Below are positions 6,648 to 15,880 of a DNA stretch of 61,933 bases, piece after piece. Positions within the stretch are counted from its first letter, which is position 1. Each line of letters begins with the position of its first letter. The DNA is from Lentimicrobiaceae bacterium (GTDB lineage Bacteria; Bacteroidota; Bacteroidia; Bacteroidales; JAGNHN01), in the NCBI GenBank assembly GCA_018001695.1, contig JAGNHN010000016.1, positions 1 through 61,933 on the forward strand. The letters are read 5' to 3'. The notes beneath the pieces are model-generated. The model made no database searches. It had not been told where the DNA came from and was given only the letters and a program-made list of their open reading frames with translations. The translations under genes were made by a program, and so were the position numbers.

Positions 6648-7005
6648 TCAACGCACCTCTTATCCTTTGATTAGTCAGATGTCCGGAGAGCAGTCATGAA
6701 CTACAGGGCTGGTATGGGTAGCATGGTGTGCCAATATCATAATGTAGACGAATGAACAGCATCTAACCATTTCAAGTAAGTATTATTCCGGTTAATTAAA
6801 CTGGTGGCTTCGTCCTAGATCTGCCAATCAACATTTTGGTCTGCTAGTCTATAGGCAGACCTGGACCTTCCTGTTGATATGCCTTGTGCGCGATTCGCAT
6901 GATGAAAACGTAAAATTTCATAGCGGCACTTTCAACATTTGGAAGTTTTTCTTGTTAATATATTAACAGAAGAAAATCTAACAGATCAGACCAAAGTTAT
7001 TATCA
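6648..7005. other. Intergenic region upstream of the calcium operon
   Basis: 358 bp without a supportable gene. It holds a small perfect hairpin (7-bp arms GGTCTGC/GCAGACC at 6838-6861) that lacks a U-run on either strand and so is not an obvious terminator, and a Rex-like palindrome close to the start of the P-type ATPase gene (listed separately). Confidence 0.6.
6952..6969 (+). promoter_or_regulatory. Rex-like operator upstream of calcium ATPase operon
   Basis: TTGTTAATATATTAACAG matches TTGTTAA-N4-TTAACAA at every conserved base except the last. The inner 16 bases form a perfect palindrome. It ends 36 bp before the ATPase start codon, where bound repressor would block transcription. The same motif lies twice in front of hydABC in this window. 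Rex is the NADH/NAD+-sensing repressor whose operators have this form in Clostridia and relatives; no rex gene is present here, so the assignment rests on the motif. Confidence 0.6.
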
Positions 7006-9762
7006 ATGAAACATCAGGACAGTATTGCCAGGGAGCACTGGCATGCCTTCAGCGAGCAGGAAGCACTATCGGAATTGAAGTCCAATAGATCAGGATTGAA
7101 TCCGGAAGAAGCATCCAGACGTACAACATTTTACGGTCCCAACAAATTGCCTGAAGCCAGTCCGGAAACCCTTTGGTCTATCATCCTGCATCAATTGGTC
7201 AATCCACTGATCTTCATCCTTATCGCAGCGGCCTTTGCCTCTGTGCTGATTGGAGAAGGAAAGGATGCCATTTTTATTTTTCTTGTGATCCTGATCAATA
7301 GTGCCCTTGGTGCCTACCAGGAGTACAACGCAGAGAAAAGCGCATCGGGCTTACAGAAACTACTCAGGATCAGTGCCAGGGTTCGTCGTGATGGCCGTGA
7401 ACAGGAGATACCATCTGAAGAGTTGGTACCTGGTGATATCGTCGTGCTGGAATCTGGTGTAAAAGTTCCGGCGGACATACGGTTGCTGGAAGTCAGCAAT
7501 CTTGAGATTGATGAGAGCTTTCTTACCGGGGAATCCATTCCTGCTATCAAGCAGGTCAGCATCATGGACGAGAACACAGGCGTGGCTGAAAGGACCAATA
7601 TGGCCTTTGCCGGCTCCACGGTCATGTCAGGGAGAGGTTTTGGGATCGTGGTTAGCACGGGTGCCATGACCCAGGTTGGACAGATAGCCCAGAATGTCTC
7701 GGAAGGCAAATCCGCCAAGCCTCCCCTGATTCAGCGTACTGAGAAATTTATCAAACAAATCACGGTTTTCATTATTGCTTTGAGCGTCATCCTGGCCGTG
7801 GTATTGCGGATGCAAGGCATGGATATCCAGGCCATTTTCTTCTTCGTTGTTGCCCTTGCCGTCTCCGCTATTCCCGAAGGCCTACCTGTGGCCCTGACCG
7901 TAGCCCTGGCCATCGCCACTCGCAGGATGGCAAAGCGAAATGTAATCGTTCGACGGCTAAATTCAGTAGAGAGCCTGGGCAGTTGTACCGTAATCGCCAG
8001 TGATAAAACAGGCACATTGACAGTGAATGAGCAGACTGCGCGTAAAATCATTCTGCCTGAGGGCGAATCATACAGTGTTACCGGACAAGGCTATAACGGG
8101 GAAGGCAACATCATTGACGACAAGAATCCTGACGTGACTGTCAACAGTGGCTATTCTAAAGCACTGGACCTATTAATGAAAGTGGCCCTGAGCTCCAACG
8201 AAGCCAGTCTGGAAAAAGACGGAGACATATGGAAACATTATGGTGATGCCATGGAGGTTGCCCTCCTGAGCCTGGGTTATAAATGGGGCGCTAAACCGCG
8301 CAAATTCAGGGAGGAATTCCCGGTCGTGGATATGGTTCCTTATGAATCTGAGCATAAACATGCAGCCGCTTTCATCCAGGAAGGCCAATCCATCCGAATG
8401 GTGGCAAAAGGGGCTGTTGAAACGGTCCTTGGATTTTGTGACCGATCCTCAGATCATGATCTGAATGGGATATTTAACAAAGACGCCGTTCTTATTCAGG
8501 CAGAAGAACTGGCAAGCAATGGGTACCGGGTGCTGGCATTTGCTGATGGTATCTGGGAGGGGTTTGTGAAACAGGAACGCTATGCGCCCTCCTCATACCC
8601 TAAACTGGCATTCCGTGGACTTATCTGCTTCATTGATCCACTCAGGCCTGAGGCGAAGGAAAGCGTGGCAAAGTGCCGTTCAGCAGGTATCAAAGTAATC
8701 ATGATCACCGGGGACCATCCGGCAACAGCAGCAAACATCGCGACCGAAATAGGCATCATGTCGCCCGGTGATCAGGTTGTAACAGGTCAGATGCTGAGCG
8801 ACGCAGGACCCTCCGACAGCCCTGCATACGAGCAACTGGTCGCGGGTAGCACTGTCTTTGCCAGGGTCAATCCGGTTCAAAAACTTGAAATTGTGGATAT
8901 CCTTATCAGAGAAGGTGAGTTTGTGGCCGTTACCGGTGATGGGGTGAATGATGCGCCGGCGCTCAAACGAGCTAACCTCGGCGTAGCCATGGGTTCCGGA
9001 ACTGATGTAGCCAAGGATGTAGGCTCCATGATCGTAACAGATGACAACTTCTCCTCTATCGTGGCCGGTGTGGAAGAAGGGAGATTTGCCTATGACAATG
9101 TCAGAAAGGTGATTTTCCTGCTGGTATCAACAGGAGCTGCTGAAGTGATCCTGTTTATTCTGTCAATCATGGCCGGCCTGCCGCTTCCATTGCTGGCGGT
9201 TCAACTCCTCTGGCTCAACCTGGTCACAAACGGGATTCAGGATGTGGCCCTTGCCTTTGAAGGTGGTGAGCCCGGTACTATGCATAAGCGACCTAGAAAA
9301 CCAGCCGAATCAATCTTTAACCGGCTGATGATCAAACAAACCATCGTTTCAAGTGTTACCATGGGGTTCATTGTCTTCGGACTCTGGTACTGGTTGATCA
9401 GGTATTCAAATATTGATGAAGTACACGCCAGAAGTCTCATCCTGCTGCTTATGGTCTTTATGCAAAACTTCCACGCTTTCAACAGTCGCTCCGAAACAAC
9501 CTCGGCCTTCAGGGTTCCTCTGAAAAGAAATATCATTCTTGTGTTTGGTGTGATCGCAGCACAAGGTTTGCATATTTTAAGCATGCAAATCCCTCTTATG
9601 CAAAACCTTCTTCGTATTGAACCAATCCTGTTTCGTGAATGGATACTGGTGCTAACCCTTGCCATACCTATTCTGATATCCATGGAAATATTCAAAGCAC
9701 TGAATATTAGATTATCTCCAGGTGATTATAACCCGGTAAAAGGCAAAGCGAACGTAGCATGA
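7006..9762 (+). CDS. Cation-translocating P-type ATPase, calcium-type (P2A-like)
   Basis: 918 residues. It has an N-terminal cation-ATPase domain (~10-80), the actuator motif TGES at 174-177, the PEGLP membrane motif at 290-294, the phosphorylated Asp333 in DKTGTLT, and the hinge GDGVND at 644-649. It ends in a C-terminal block of six membrane helices (~700-905). PEGLP with this layout is characteristic of P2A Ca2+ pumps (SERCA/PMR1-like), which export Ca2+ or Mn2+ at the cost of ATP. It overlaps the next ORF by 4 bp (ATGA) and heads a four-gene cluster ending in a Ca2+/Na+ antiporter, which supports calcium as substrate. A Rex-like palindrome lies just upstream. Confidence 0.93.
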   Translation: MKHQDSIAREHWHAFSEQEALSELKSNRSGLNPEEASRRTTFYGPNKLPEASPETLWSIILHQLVNPLIFILIAAAFASVLIGEGKDAIFIFLVILINSALGAYQEYNAEKSASGLQKLLRISARVRRDGREQEIPSEELVPGDIVVLESGVKVPADIRLLEVSNLEIDESFLTGESIPAIKQVSIMDENTGVAERTNMAFAGSTVMSGRGFGIVVSTGAMTQVGQIAQNVSEGKSAKPPLIQRTEKFIKQITVFIIALSVILAVVLRMQGMDIQAIFFFVVALAVSAIPEGLPVALTVALAIATRRMAKRNVIVRRLNSVESLGSCTVIASDKTGTLTVNEQTARKIILPEGESYSVTGQGYNGEGNIIDDKNPDVTVNSGYSKALDLLMKVALSSNEASLEKDGDIWKHYGDAMEVALLSLGYKWGAKPRKFREEFPVVDMVPYESEHKHAAAFIQEGQSIRMVAKGAVETVLGFCDRSSDHDLNGIFNKDAVLIQAEELASNGYRVLAFADGIWEGFVKQERYAPSSYPKLAFRGLICFIDPLRPEAKESVAKCRSAGIKVIMITGDHPATAANIATEIGIMSPGDQVVTGQMLSDAGPSDSPAYEQLVAGSTVFARVNPVQKLEIVDILIREGEFVAVTGDGVNDAPALKRANLGVAMGSGTDVAKDVGSMIVTDDNFSSIVAGVEEGRFAYDNVRKVIFLLVSTGAAEVILFILSIMAGLPLPLLAVQLLWLNLVTNGIQDVALAFEGGEPGTMHKRPRKPAESIFNRLMIKQTIVSSVTMGFIVFGLWYWLIRYSNIDEVHARSLILLLMVFMQNFHAFNSRSETTSAFRVPLKRNIILVFGVIAAQGLHILSMQIPLMQNLLRIEPILFREWILVLTLAIPILISMEIFKALNIRLSPGDYNPVKGKANVA

Positions 9763-10400
9763 CGTCTCAGCCCTTCGATGATGGCAAAAAAATCACAGTG
9801 ATGACCAGGTTTCTTTCAGTAAATAACTTATTAAAAATCATGATTTTGATTATCATGATCTGCCTTTCTTCTGCAATTTCTGCCCAGATAAAATGGGAAA
9901 AGGAATACCGGATAAAGGAGCGTGAAGTTCCTGCCAGGGCGCGGGATTACATCGCTACGCTAAATATCGAGGACAAAATCAAGTGGTTTCGGGAAGAGAG
10001 CAAAGACCAGGTAAGTCTGGAAGCCAAAACAAGCTTTCGCAGCAGGCCCATCAGCATAGAATTCAGCCTGGATGGAAGTTTGCTGGATGCAGAATTACAG
10101 ATTTCTGAGACGGCCATTCCCGCTATAGCCCGATCGACTATCAACGCCTACCTGAAGAGCAGGTTTGACAAATACCGGATCATGCGGATTCAGGTACAAT
10201 ACAGTGGTGATCCCGGAGCAGTGAAAACCATGCTTTTACAAGGTACTGTTCAGGACGGACTGGTTCAAAAATTCGAAGTTGAAGTGAAAGGAAGAAGCGG
10301 TAAAAGTCTGGATTTGTATGAGTTTTTGTTCTCCCGGGAAGGAAAATTCGAAAAAGAGTCGCGAATCGTGCTGAGAAACCCTGATAACCTGACATACTGA
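9759..10400 (+). CDS. Exported PepSY-like protein of unknown function
   Basis: 213 residues if translation starts at the ATG overlapping the ATPase stop codon. An internal Met at residue 15 (position 9801) would give a more compact signal peptide (LLKIMILIIMICLSSAISAQ follows it), so 9801 is a real alternative. The mature part has two roughly similar halves (about 50-120 and 120-200) of alpha/beta character, like PepSY or DUF2874 proteins of the Bacteroidota periplasm: 'IKWFREES...SIEFSLDGSLLDAE' and 'FDKYRIMRIQVQY'. It has no catalytic motif. Its position between the Ca2+ pump and a DUF2490 protein suggests a periplasmic accessory role in cation handling, but this is inference. Confidence 0.7.
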   Translation: MTSQPFDDGKKITVMTRFLSVNNLLKIMILIIMICLSSAISAQIKWEKEYRIKEREVPARARDYIATLNIEDKIKWFREESKDQVSLEAKTSFRSRPISIEFSLDGSLLDAELQISETAIPAIARSTINAYLKSRFDKYRIMRIQVQYSGDPGAVKTMLLQGTVQDGLVQKFEVEVKGRSGKSLDLYEFLFSREGKFEKESRIVLRNPDNLTY

Positions 10401-11083
10401 TGGGAAGATCAGGCATCATTCTGTTTCTCCTTGCTTTCAGCAATCTTGCATGGGGTCAACATGCCTATCAGGCGGGTGTACTTCCGGGGATAAGCCTCAG
10501 TAAAGGGCTTGGAAAGGGATGGGGCATCAACCTGCGTGCTGAAACCCGTCAAAAGCTGGTTGAAGGCATTGCAGGTGAGGGTAGCGACATGGGGTATGCA
10601 CACCTTCTTGCTGACTATTCCCTGATCCTGAGCAGGCGGTCGGGTCTGAACAACCGCCTTTCAGCAGGTTATCTCCTCAGGCATGAACCGGAGCAGATAA
10701 GACACCGTCTTTTGCAACAATATACCATCGTCACACAATTTAGTAAACTGAGATTGGCACACCGGATCGCGTCGGATCAGACCTTTGGAGGTGAGGATCC
10801 CTTATCGGTTCGTTTTCGGTACAGGCTGGGCTGGGAACAAGCGCTACGTGGACAATCCATCGATCCGGGTGAATTGTATTTCAAGCTTAGCAATGAGTAC
10901 CTGTTTGAGATTGAGCAAGATGAACATGATCTTGAAATGCGCTGGCAGCCCTTTCTTGGTTATTACCTCAGTGATAACAACAAGCTGGAAGGTGGCCTCG
11001 ACTACCGGCTTTCGTCTCTTCTTAACGCACCCGGACGAAGCAGAATTTGGCTCAGTATCAATTGGTTGATCAGCATCAAATAA
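10400..11083 (+). CDS. DUF2490 outer-membrane beta-barrel protein
   Basis: 227 residues. It has a signal peptide (~1-19, ending AWGQ) followed by amphipathic beta strands with aromatic girdles, ending in the IWLSINWLISIK strand typical of an outer-membrane barrel. The spacing of strand motifs (RLSAGYLLRHEP, LRLAHRIASDQTF, FRYRLGWE, FLGYYLSDNNKLEGGLDYR) is that of DUF2490 proteins. The start codon overlaps the previous stop by one base (TGATG), so the genes are translationally coupled. It may form a porin or anchor that completes the envelope path for the cations moved by the flanking pump and antiporter. Confidence 0.85.
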   Translation: MGRSGIILFLLAFSNLAWGQHAYQAGVLPGISLSKGLGKGWGINLRAETRQKLVEGIAGEGSDMGYAHLLADYSLILSRRSGLNNRLSAGYLLRHEPEQIRHRLLQQYTIVTQFSKLRLAHRIASDQTFGGEDPLSVRFRYRLGWEQALRGQSIDPGELYFKLSNEYLFEIEQDEHDLEMRWQPFLGYYLSDNNKLEGGLDYRLSSLLNAPGRSRIWLSINWLISIK

Positions 11084-11114
11084 ACCATTTTACCAGAAAA
11101 GAATCTTTAGAACA

Positions 11115-12071
11115 ATGATTATTAATATCTTACTACTTATAGTTGGTTTTCTTCTCCTTATCAAAGGGGCAGATTGGTTTGTCTCAGGGGCCTCCGCCCT
11201 GGCGAGAAAATACCATGTCTCAGATTTGGCCATTGGCCTGACCATTGTCGCCTTTGGGACTTCAGCACCTGAACTGGTCGTTAATGCCTTCGCCTCGGCA
11301 ACCGACCACCAAAGCATCGTGTTTGGCAATGTGATTGGCAGTAATCTCATGAACCTGTTACTAATTCTGGGCCTGGTGGGAATCATCTCCCCTGTTCCGG
11401 TTCAATCCAGCACAGTATGGAAGGAAATACCCCTATCGCTTCTGGCGATCATCCTTCTTTTCTTCATGTCAAATGACTATATCAGAGGAACCTCTCCATT
11501 GCTGGGCAGGTCGGATGCGCTCGTGCTGCTTGGGATGTTCGGACTCTTCCTGTTTTATGTTTACAGTCAGTTACGCAAGGATCCTGTACGTGTGAAAGGC
11601 AATGAGGAAACGATGGCAGGATGGAAGATATGGCTGCTGAATGCCGGTGGACTGGCTGCCATGATCGCCGGAGGCAGGCTTGTGGTACCCAATGCTGTTG
11701 ACCTTGCCACCTTACTGGGCGTCAGTGAGAAGATCATTGGCGTTACGATTGTTGCCGCCGGCACATCGCTGCCGGAACTGGCCACTTCGGTCGTGGCCGC
11801 TATCCGGAAAAATAATGATATGGCCGTTGGTAACATCATCGGGTCCAATATCTTCAATATCTTTTTTATCCTGGCTATCAGCGGCCTTATCCGGCCCATT
11901 CCCTTCGACCGGGCATTCAATCTGGACATCCTGTTGCTGGCAGGTGGAACAGTGTTTATGTTCCTGGCCATGTTCATGTCAGGCCGGCGTAAGCTGGACC
12001 GCTGGGAAGCAGTGCTTATGACCAGTGCTTACCTTGGATATTTAGGTTTTCTGATATACAAGGAATTATAG
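11115..12071 (+). CDS. Calcium/sodium antiporter (CaCA family, YrbG-like)
   Basis: 318 residues, about ten membrane helices in two inverted halves. Each half carries the alpha-repeat signature: GLTIVAFGTSAPELVVN and GNVIGSNLMNLLLILG in the first, GVTIVAAGTSLPELATS and GNIIGSNIFNIFFILA in the second. These Gly-Thr-Ser-x-Pro-Glu motifs bind Ca2+ in the K+-independent Na+/Ca2+ exchanger family. It sits 31 bp after the DUF2490 gene and is the last gene of the calcium operon. Together with the P-type ATPase it provides both ATP-driven and gradient-driven Ca2+ export across the inner membrane. Confidence 0.93.
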   Translation: MIINILLLIVGFLLLIKGADWFVSGASALARKYHVSDLAIGLTIVAFGTSAPELVVNAFASATDHQSIVFGNVIGSNLMNLLLILGLVGIISPVPVQSSTVWKEIPLSLLAIILLFFMSNDYIRGTSPLLGRSDALVLLGMFGLFLFYVYSQLRKDPVRVKGNEETMAGWKIWLLNAGGLAAMIAGGRLVVPNAVDLATLLGVSEKIIGVTIVAAGTSLPELATSVVAAIRKNNDMAVGNIIGSNIFNIFFILAISGLIRPIPFDRAFNLDILLLAGGTVFMFLAMFMSGRRKLDRWEAVLMTSAYLGYLGFLIYKEL

Positions 12072-12280: not shown

Positions 12281-14074
12281 TCAATGCCTTTCCCTGGGTT
12301 TGTAATGCGTATGGAGTAAGTCATGTGACTTATGTCCGAGGGGTTCACCCAGGAAGTCCTTGTAAATTTGTACCACTTCCGGGTTTTCATGGGATTTACG
12401 CAGTGTAAGTCCTTCATCTTCAGCATAAATAGCTTCCGCCCGTTTCTCACGGATTTCAGGGGAAGTCGGTATTGGCTGGCCGCCACCACCCAGACAACCG
12501 CCCGGGCAGGCCATCACCTCGATAAAGTGATAGTTGGCTTCGCCTGATTCGACTTTTTCCATCAGGTGTTTGGCGTTGGTCAGACCATGGGCAACCGCGA
12601 CACGAAGTTCCACACCTTCGAGGAAGTTCCACTCCGGTTTGGTATCCTTGATCAATACGCTGGCTTCCCTGACGCCTTCCATACCCCTGACGGGCATAAT
12701 GTTGAGGTTGGCGAAAGGCACCTCACGTCCGGTTACGATTTCATAGGCCGTACGCAGCGCCGCTTCCATCACACCACCGGTGGCACCAAAGATCACAGCA
12801 GCACCGGTAGAATCACCCATGATACTGTCGTAATGCATGTCGTCCAGTTTTATAAACTCGATACCAGCTTGCTTGATCATCATAGCCAGTTCGCGGGTTG
12901 TCAGAACGTAATCGACATCCTTGTAACCACTGGCGCGCATTTCGGGGCGGTTTGCCTCAAACTTCTTGGCAGTACAGGGCATGATGGAAACCGACACCAT
13001 GTTCTTGGGATCCAGACCCTTCTTCATGGCAAAATACGTCTTGGCCAGGGCACCAAACATCTGCTGTGGTGATTTACAGGAAGATACGTTTGGCAACAAG
13101 CTCGGGAAGGTATGCTCAATGAATTTGATCCAGCCAGGTGAGCAGGAGGTGGTCATGGGGAGTGCGATGCTCTCATCTTTGTCGACGAGGGCTTTCTTCA
13201 GGCGCACCAGCAGCTCGGTACCTTCTTCCATAATGGTAAGGTCGGCGGTGAAGTCGGTATCCAGCACCGAATCAAATCCGATATGTTTCAGTGCAGAGAC
13301 CATCTTACCTGTAACCCTGTGACCGGGCTCAAGACCCAGATCCTCACCCAGTCCGATACGGACAGCCGGGGCTGTCTGAACCACGACATGCTTGGACGGA
13401 TCATTGATGGCTTCCCAGACCTCTTCCATGTAGTTACGTTCAACGAGGGCACCGGTGGGACAGCGGTTGATACACTGGCCGCAGTTGGTGCAAACCACAT
13501 GATGCATGGGTTTGTTGAGGAAGGTGGTGATCATCTGGTGATCCCCCTTATGGGCAACGCAGAGGGCGCCGACTGCCTGCAGCTCGTCGCAGGTGCGCAC
13601 GCACCGCTGGCAGCGGATGCATTTGCTATTGTCTTTTTGGATGGATGGAGAACTGATATCCAAAACCTTGTCCTTGGCCTTAACCAGATCCAGAAACACA
13701 TGGTCTCCTACCCTGTATTCGGCCGACAGGTCCTGCAGCTCACAATGCCCGTTCTTGAAGCACTTCGTGCAATCGGCATTATGCTCAGAGAGCAGCAGCT
13801 CGATCACATGCTTGCGGGCGTTGCGCACCTTGGCGCTGTTAGTGAAAACCTCCATGCCCTCGGATACGGGTGTTGCGCAGGAGGCTGCCAGTGCTTTGGC
13901 ACCGGTCACTTCTACTACACAAACCCTGCAGTTACCGGCGACACTCAGGTCAGGGTGGTTACAAAGGGTAGGTACGCGGAAGTTGAGTTTTTCAGCTGCC
14001 TCCAGAATGGTGGTGCCCTCTTCAACGGTCACCGGTATGTTATTTATCTTAAGATTTACCAGGTACTTGCTCAT
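12281..14074 (-). CDS. hydA: [FeFe] hydrogenase catalytic subunit HydA (trimeric NADH-linked type)
   Basis: 597 residues from the ATG at 14074; the reading frame is open further upstream but overlaps hydB, and homology begins at MSKYLVNLKI. Cofactor sites in order: [2Fe-2S] Cys38, 49, 52, 66; His-ligated [4Fe-4S] His98, Cys102, 105, 111; two [4Fe-4S] clusters at Cys152/155/158/162 and 195/198/201/205. The H-cluster domain has L1 TSCSPGW (Cys311-Ser312), L2 MPCTAKKFE and L3 EVMACPGGCLGGGGQP. A fused small-subunit-like tail forms the C-terminus. It makes H2 from electrons delivered by HydB/HydC. It is the last gene of the operon, 34 bp after hydB, followed by a terminator. Note Ser in place of the second Cys of the common L1 TSCCPxW. 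Confidence 0.95.
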   Translation of the reverse strand: MSKYLVNLKINNIPVTVEEGTTILEAAEKLNFRVPTLCNHPDLSVAGNCRVCVVEVTGAKALAASCATPVSEGMEVFTNSAKVRNARKHVIELLLSEHNADCTKCFKNGHCELQDLSAEYRVGDHVFLDLVKAKDKVLDISSPSIQKDNSKCIRCQRCVRTCDELQAVGALCVAHKGDHQMITTFLNKPMHHVVCTNCGQCINRCPTGALVERNYMEEVWEAINDPSKHVVVQTAPAVRIGLGEDLGLEPGHRVTGKMVSALKHIGFDSVLDTDFTADLTIMEEGTELLVRLKKALVDKDESIALPMTTSCSPGWIKFIEHTFPSLLPNVSSCKSPQQMFGALAKTYFAMKKGLDPKNMVSVSIMPCTAKKFEANRPEMRASGYKDVDYVLTTRELAMMIKQAGIEFIKLDDMHYDSIMGDSTGAAVIFGATGGVMEAALRTAYEIVTGREVPFANLNIMPVRGMEGVREASVLIKDTKPEWNFLEGVELRVAVAHGLTNAKHLMEKVESGEANYHFIEVMACPGGCLGGGGQPIPTSPEIREKRAEAIYAEDEGLTLRKSHENPEVVQIYKDFLGEPLGHKSHDLLHTHYKPRERH

Positions 14075-14108
14075 GGTTATGTCTATTATCGGTTTCTGAA
14101 TCAGAGGA

Positions 14109-15275
14109 TTAATAGATGATCTCTTCCCGGAAATTATCCACGATGGAGTTGAAGGGATTGGCGACGGATTGACCCAGGCCACATTTGGCGGCCAGTTTCA
14201 TGGTATCAGCCAGTTTCTTGAGTTCGTCGAGATAGTCGGGCTTGCGTTCTCCACGTTTCACGGCTTCGATGCCTTTGAGGAGCTGCTGGCAACCGACACG
14301 GCAAGGGGTGCATTGACCACAGGATTCCTCGGTGAAGAATTCCAGGTAATCATGCAACACATTATACATTGAGCGGGAGCTGTTAAAGACCATCATGGAT
14401 CCGCCCGTAGGGATACCCTCAAAACCAATGACGGTATTGTTGAAGTTCTTCCTTGGGACACAATGTCCGCTGGCGCCTCCCACCTGTACCGCTTTGGTAT
14501 CGCCATCACCAAATTCTTCCACGAAATCAGCCAGGGGCATACCCAGCTCAAGCTCATAGATACCTGCAATGGGCGTATCTCCAGAGACGGAGAAGACTTT
14601 CGATCCCCTGGAATCTTTGGTTCCCAATGCTTTAAACTGCTCCGGACCCAGGGTGCAGATCATGGTGGTATAGACCAGGGTTTCCACATTATTGATGACC
14701 GTAGGCTTATAGTTGTAGCCGGCACGGGTCGGGTAAGGTGGTTTGTTCCTGGGCTCACCACGTTTGCCTTCCATGGATTCGAAAAGTGCGCTTTCTTCTC
14801 CGCAGATATAGGCACCGGAACCCGACTTCAGGTATATGGTATAGTCCAGTCCCAGTTCCCTGGCCTTGGCATTGAATTTGTCAATTTTCTGCTGCAAACC
14901 TTTCAGCAGGAAGTTATATTCACCCCTCAGGTAGATATAACCTTCGCGGGCGCCGATGGCATACCCGCAGATGGCCATACCAACCAGCACCTTTTCAGGC
15001 ACCCTGTCCAGGATTTCCCTGTCTTTAAAGGTACCGGGCTCCCCTTCATCGGCATTGCAAATGACGTATTTGGTATCTCCGCTTTCATTGCGGGTGAATT
15101 TCCACTTCAATCCGGTAGGAAAACCGGCTCCACCCCTACCCTTGAGCCCTGAATCAATCACATCCAGGATCACTTCATCCGGACTGCGCTGCAAAGTTTT
15201 GGCGAGCACATCCATGGGATCACACATATCGGTGGCAAAAATGATATCAACCTTTTTCAATTGTTTCTTTTCCAT
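14109..15275 (-). CDS. hydB: Hydrogenase NADH-binding subunit HydB (short NuoF-like form)
   Basis: 388 residues. It has the FMN/NADH site GRGGAGFPTG (47-56) and NADEGEPG (74-81), SGAYICGEESAL (~153-164), and one [4Fe-4S] cluster at Cys319, Cys322, Cys325 and Cys365. HydB proteins of bifurcating hydrogenases are usually near 600 residues, with an N-terminal thioredoxin-like [2Fe-2S] domain and a C-terminal two-[4Fe-4S] ferredoxin domain; both are absent here, leaving a bare NuoF core. The enzyme would oxidise NADH and pass electrons to HydA. It lies 27 bp after hydC. Complex I NuoF is ruled out by the hydA neighbour and the absence of other nuo genes. Confidence 0.93.
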   Translation of the reverse strand: MEKKQLKKVDIIFATDMCDPMDVLAKTLQRSPDEVILDVIDSGLKGRGGAGFPTGLKWKFTRNESGDTKYVICNADEGEPGTFKDREILDRVPEKVLVGMAICGYAIGAREGYIYLRGEYNFLLKGLQQKIDKFNAKARELGLDYTIYLKSGSGAYICGEESALFESMEGKRGEPRNKPPYPTRAGYNYKPTVINNVETLVYTTMICTLGPEQFKALGTKDSRGSKVFSVSGDTPIAGIYELELGMPLADFVEEFGDGDTKAVQVGGASGHCVPRKNFNNTVIGFEGIPTGGSMMVFNSSRSMYNVLHDYLEFFTEESCGQCTPCRVGCQQLLKGIEAVKRGERKPDYLDELKKLADTMKLAAKCGLGQSVANPFNSIVDNFREEIIY

Positions 15276-15302: not shown

Positions 15303-15770
15303 TTACTTCTTTTTTGCGTACTCTTCTACGATCTCAATCGCACGGTGAGGTGTGATCTCAGGATAAACGTCACCGTTTACCAGCATAACGGGGCCTTTAT
15401 GGCACCATCCAAGGCAATTGGCTGTAAGGAGTGTAAACTTGCGATCCACCGTTGTTTCGCCGACTTTGACTTTCAGCGTTTCCTCCAATGCCTGGATGAC
15501 CTGATCCTTACCGGCCATATGGCAGGTGATGGTCTTACATACCCGGATGATGTATTTACCCCTGGGTACGGTATCCAGGAAAGTATAGAATGAGGCCGTG
15601 CCATATACTTCAGCTGCAGAAATGTCCAGTTCCCTGGCCACTTCCAGCATGGCTTCCTCCGACAGGTATCTCTCCTGCTGCACGACACCTTGCAATACCG
15701 GCATCAACGCATTGCGGGAATTTCCATGTTTGCCAACCAGGTCCTTGATTAAGGCTTGTGTGTTCGTCAT
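15303..15770 (-). CDS. hydC: Hydrogenase [2Fe-2S] subunit HydC (NuoE-like)
   Basis: 155 residues of the thioredoxin-like ferredoxin family. It has an N-terminal helical bundle (~1-60), then the [2Fe-2S] ligands Cys78, Cys83, Cys119 and Cys123 in the usual C-x4-C...C-x3-C pattern, with YGTASFYTF before them. It pairs with HydB as the electron entry module. It is the first gene of the operon. The start is fixed by a strong GGAGG Shine-Dalgarno sequence 4 bp upstream (plus-strand 15775-15779), unusual for this phylum where such sites are mostly weak. Confidence 0.93.
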   Translation of the reverse strand: MTNTQALIKDLVGKHGNSRNALMPVLQGVVQQERYLSEEAMLEVARELDISAAEVYGTASFYTFLDTVPRGKYIIRVCKTITCHMAGKDQVIQALEETLKVKVGETTVDRKFTLLTANCLGWCHKGPVMLVNGDVYPEITPHRAIEIVEEYAKKK

Positions 15771-15815: not shown

Positions 15816-15833
15816 TTGTTAACAGATTAACAA
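15816..15833 (-). promoter_or_regulatory. Rex-like operator 1 of hydABC
   Basis: TTGTTAACAGATTAACAA is a perfect TTGTTAA-N4-TTAACAA inverted repeat, the form known for Rex repressor sites. It lies 46 bp before the hydC start, just downstream of the predicted -7 box, so bound repressor would sit at or after the transcription start. Confidence 0.78.
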
Positions 15834-15862: not shown

Positions 15863-15880
15863 TTGTTATCTTGCTAACAA
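15863..15880 (-). promoter_or_regulatory. Rex-like operator 2 of hydABC
   Basis: TTGTTATCTTGCTAACAA (plus strand) has outer half-sites TTGTTA/TAACAA with one mismatch in the seventh position. It starts 47 bp from operator 1 and covers the region upstream of the -7 box. Two sites flanking one promoter suggest tight repression. Confidence 0.6.

Follow-up and report, generated by a model that had tools for sequence, protein, structure and literature searches.

A predicted Rex operator ahead of a cation ATPase and Na+/Ca2+ exchanger operon in a Lentimicrobiaceae bacterium

In the window analysed here, a stretch of 61,933 nucleotides from a Lentimicrobiaceae bacterium, an 18-bp palindrome lies ahead of four genes that overlap or almost touch and together form an operon (7006-12071). 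It is likely that this palindrome serves, in this species only, as a Rex operator controlling the operon, which encodes a P2-type ATPase, a 213-aa protein, a DUF2490 protein and a Na+/Ca2+ exchanger. The features of the locus are as follows:

6934-6941, forward strand: putative -7 box, AACATTTG, which starts 18 bp before the operator and differs from TANNTTTG at one position
6952-6969, no strand: predicted Rex-type operator TTGTTAATATATTAACAG (pattern search, genome-wide counts, weight matrix)
7006-9762, forward strand: P2-type cation ATPase of 918 aa with DKTGT and PEGLP, and with Asn742 at the position of the transmembrane-6 Asp of Ca2+ pumps
9759-10400, forward strand: protein of 213 aa that matches no known family; 4-bp overlap with the end of the ATPase ORF
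10400-11083, forward strand: DUF2490 protein; its gene shares 1 bp with the one before it
11115-12071, forward strand: Na+/Ca2+ exchanger family protein (TIGR00367, 243.9 bits against a curated cut-off of 179.65)

The palindrome ends 36 bp 5′ of the ATPase start codon, exactly where the original prediction had placed it. Its inner 16 bp, TGTTAATATATTAACA, are perfectly palindromic, and the whole site departs from TTGTTAANNNNTTAACAA, the published Clostridiaceae Rex consensus (PMC8457756, PMC8579813), at a single position, the last, where A is replaced by G. The further claim that it differs by one base from the site of the hydrogenase genes held as well, as the operator at 15816-15833 matches the consensus without mismatch. 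That operator is one of two belonging to the neighbouring convergent hydEBA operon, both of which lie at its end far from the ATPase operon:

12281-14182, reverse strand: HydA, NADH-dependent [FeFe] hydrogenase of group A6
14109-15275, reverse strand: HydB, NuoF-like subunit
15303-15770, reverse strand: HydE, NuoE-like 2Fe-2S subunit
15816-15833, no strand: predicted Rex operator 1 of hydEBA, TTGTTAACAGATTAACAA, no mismatches; a double site occupies the same place in the sister species (G001)
15863-15880, no strand: predicted Rex operator 2 of hydEBA, TTGTTATCTTGCTAACAA, two mismatches

Across the whole genome (3.2 Mb, 97.8% complete), we found 7 sites with at most one mismatch to the Rex consensus, against none for the reversed control. 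When two mismatches were allowed, the counts rose to 27 and 9, respectively, and several of these sites sit within genes. A search of the window alone with up to three mismatches gave a weak signal (5 matches against a shuffle mean of 2.24). We also scored the site with a weight matrix built from 12 other operators, taken from this genome and from that of its sister species. It reached 21-24 bits, within the leave-one-out range of 13-25, and a score this high is expected by chance 0.02-0.18 times in 3.2 Mb, or 0.004-0.03 times over 2,700 promoters of 200 bp (2,700 being an assumed round number). The G at its final position recurs at the gcvP site, so that both end in CAG, and the threonine dehydrogenase site of the sister species ends in CAC. 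The end position is therefore tolerant, which answers the single mismatch.

The motif is shared with a set of redox genes. Five of the other six sites with at most one mismatch precede NAD(H) or redox genes, namely two hydEBA-type hydrogenase operons, an Fe-S flavoenzyme, gdhA (glutamate dehydrogenase) and threonine dehydrogenase, whose gene is paired with that of glycine C-acetyltransferase (kbl). The remaining site is flanked by a cluster that includes Fe-S protein genes, assigned by sequence only, and by a gene for an outer-membrane protein. Sites with two mismatches precede gcvP (glycine dehydrogenase) and saccharopine dehydrogenase. The half-sites of the ATPase operator, TTGTTAA and TTAACA, are those of this redox set, and the ATPase promoter region carries an operator that matches the genome's own Rex motif. 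The same genome encodes two Rex paralogues, both scoring above curated cut-offs, on contigs C15 and C33 (L017:2713-3405 and L016:2497-3111). We consider it quite likely that the sequence at 6952-6969 is a Rex operator. The analysis also predicts the Rex regulon of a Bacteroidales lineage.

Two further observations concern other promoters of this genome. At three of them, weaker Rex-like sites are placed exactly 17 bp off the main operator (L012:1330-1347, L013:4099-4116, L015:4256-4273) and are perhaps tandem operators. Additionally, ATGTTTAAACATTAACAA (L168:3974-3991), a possible weak Rex site with two mismatches, lies 56 bp 5′ of nqrA, a gene of the Na+-translocating NADH:quinone reductase.

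The -7 box of Bacteroidetes promoters reads TANNTTTG. It starts 11-20 bp before the operator at the first hydEBA operon and at the flavoprotein, threonine dehydrogenase and gdhA promoters, and the one-mismatch variant found ahead of the ATPase gene is similarly placed; a clear -33 element was not seen in the ATPase promoter. The distance from operator to start codon, 36 bp for the ATPase, is 45 bp for the proximal hyd1 operator, 47 bp for hyd2, 50 bp for the flavoenzyme, 56 bp for gdhA and 25 bp for saccharopine dehydrogenase. Since the -7 box variant lies just upstream, the operator sits where a bound repressor would block transcription. Rex sites that overlap a C. bescii promoter or lie 3′ of it accompany repression (PMC8579813).

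Rex is bound to DNA at a low NADH/NAD+ ratio and released at a high one (PMC8457756). At a low ratio, Rex would thus occupy 6952-6969, immediately 3′ of the -7 box and at or close to the start of transcription, and so block the operon. As NADH rises, Rex would leave, and the cation-export operon would be switched on together with the convergent hydEBA. The operon would accordingly be silent under oxidised conditions and expressed with hydEBA under reduced ones. Such logic would agree with the original suggestion that ATP is saved when reducing power is short. We put forward more tentatively that Rex couples NADH/NAD+ directly to the cation-export operon of a P2-ATPase clade with Asn in transmembrane segment 6 (M6), in which case pumping or Na+/Ca2+ cycling would be switched with hydrogen production. 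It speaks against assigning the site to Rex that its target is not an NAD(H) enzyme. Should Rex indeed control the operon, cation export in a fermenting anaerobe would be set by redox poise, a link that did not turn up in the Rex papers searched.

The closest known counterpart is found in Clostridia and Caldicellulosiruptor, whose Rex regulon (Ravcheev et al. 2012, cited by PMC8457756 and PMC8579813) has the same 18-bp palindrome, a bifurcating [FeFe] hydrogenase as core target and operators at or downstream of the promoter. The present case differs in its Bacteroidales host and in that the regulon would also take in an operon for a cation ATPase and an exchanger. Among the targets named in the Rex papers searched, we found neither a P-type ATPase nor calcium, and the original comparative-genomics study may contain an earlier mention. 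The regulator, the motif and the logic are known; to judge by the papers searched, the target is new.

The original prediction proposed looking for the palindrome upstream of orthologous ATPase genes and took its absence upstream of close ones as a refutation. It was absence that we observed: the upstream DNA could be read for 77 of 80 orthologue loci (L048-L127), and a site with at most two mismatches was present at none of these 77. The site was not found at Na+/Ca2+ exchanger homologues in relatives either. A Rex operator in this genome is well supported by the Rex genes, the redox regulon that shares the motif and the promoter geometry, but not by the orthologues.

The relatives nevertheless do carry the motif elsewhere. 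As a positive control, hydE-like genes in 15 of them were scored, and 13 of 28 reached 13 or more; the genes preceded by the motif are mostly in Rex-bearing genomes, an association that is no more than suggestive (Fisher p = 0.08 for the 15 genomes). Ten other genomes have both Rex and an ATPase orthologue, and in these the site occurs at a hydE-like gene in 8 and at the ATPase in none (Fisher p = 0.0007). Conservation before orthologues in Rex-bearing relatives is therefore lacking, although such conservation supports membership of a Rex regulon and does not strictly define it, as Rex regulons vary between taxa. In the sister species, the hydEBA promoter still has both of its sites (proteins 79-87% identical) and the threonine dehydrogenase site is also retained; this species has no ATPase, and another hydrogenase cluster lies 3′ of its hydA.

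The operon is patchily distributed: of the 295 genomes searched from the order, 3 (this one included) have an ATPase orthologue, and in the data examined the operon's Rex site is confined to this species. Because neither the 77 orthologues nor the 10 Rex-bearing genomes carry it before the ATPase, Rex control of the operon would be lineage-specific. The closest orthologue in the sets searched shares only 71% identity, so we read the absence as evidence against ancestral control and not against control as such. This control was probably gained within the lineage, either when the ATPase operon was acquired next to hydEBA or later. A site in one species only makes this an example of regulon drift and not a general rule.

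Some candidates for conservation were set aside. Relaxed sites at the ATPase orthologues L060 and L070 (TTGCAAATATTTTAACTA) and L053 (TTGATAATGGAATAAAAA) score about 7-11.5, against 13-23 at hydE, and no Rex was found there. Adjacency of ATPase and hydrogenase genes was likewise rejected as evidence of co-regulation, as it also occurs, without a Rex-like site, in L099 and L104, two Clostridia metagenome genomes with the ATPase near hydEBA-like genes. We also noted that several relatives have two Rex paralogues (G063, G068, G076, G073, G082 and G001 were listed) and that in relatives Rex genes lie within about 6-11 kb of hydE-like genes, for example on G063:C129, G063:C70, G068:C576, G076:C78, G082:C12 and G073:C159.

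The missing site in orthologues would also be expected if the palindrome matched the motif by chance, or were a relic, and the operon were not under Rex. The background seen at two mismatches (9 control sites against 27) and the intragenic position of several such sites point the same way. We regard this explanation as unlikely: 0.004-0.03 such sites are expected over all promoters of the genome, reversed controls never reach one mismatch or fewer, and the position and the -7 box agree with those of the other operators. Less likely still is an operator for another regulator, such as a local repressor that responds to metals or cations and has a Rex-like half-site. The perfect 16-bp palindrome would suit many dimeric repressors and the target is an ion transporter, yet we found no gene for another regulator within or beside the operon, and both half-sites belong to the redox set of the genome.

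A third alternative is a variant of Rex control and does not exclude it: the ATPase may pump Na+ or another monovalent ion instead of Ca2+, which would link redox state to sodium energetics. Its probability falls somewhat short of even. The operon was originally described as one for calcium efflux, a description that is uncertain and has partial support. The exchanger passes the cut-off for calcium/sodium antiporters. The ATPase has the P-type core (DKTGT, PEGLP in M4, N- and C-terminal cation ATPase domains), but falls below all three curated calcium-pump cut-offs (TIGR01522, 570 against 798 bits; TIGR01116, 546 against 703; TIGR01517, 432 against 507). It also has Asn742 where the aligned SPCA1 and LMCA1 have the M6 Asp, and 80 of the 81 clade members have Asn at this position. 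The M6 Asp is that of calcium site II, D800 of SERCA, and is needed for Ca2+ transport. Gene neighbourhoods at other loci also favour sodium: at eight archaeal loci (L106, L108, L109, L110, L114, L117, L125 and L127) the gene after the ATPase belongs to one shared cluster, and both members of it that were tested are SNF-family sodium symporters. The ATPase gene of L088 is preceded by one for a Na+/H+ exchanger. Calcium, on the other hand, is favoured by the antiporter in the same operon, by the closest solved structures, which are the Ca2+ pumps SPCA1 and LMCA1, and by Glu291, Glu713 and Asn738, which are kept at positions of calcium-site residues. We therefore hold calcium and sodium to be about equally likely substrates.

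With the P2A Ca2+-ATPases LMCA1 (Listeria) and SPCA1/PMR1, the protein shares the fold family, DKTGT, PEGLP or PE of M4 and an M6 Asn. It differs in that its whole clade has Asn for the M6 Asp, in the presence of the M5 Glu713 and in scoring below the calcium-specific cut-offs. The exchanger, in turn, differs from other TIGR00367 antiporters in sharing an operon with a P-type ATPase, an arrangement not seen at the other ATPase loci. The P2-ATPase clade, apparently uncharacterised, is widespread, and its Asn at the calcium-site Asp merits attention. Its M6 signature, NLVTNGIQ, was encountered in Bacteroidota, Ignavibacteria, Firmicutes, Desulfobacteria and methanogens.
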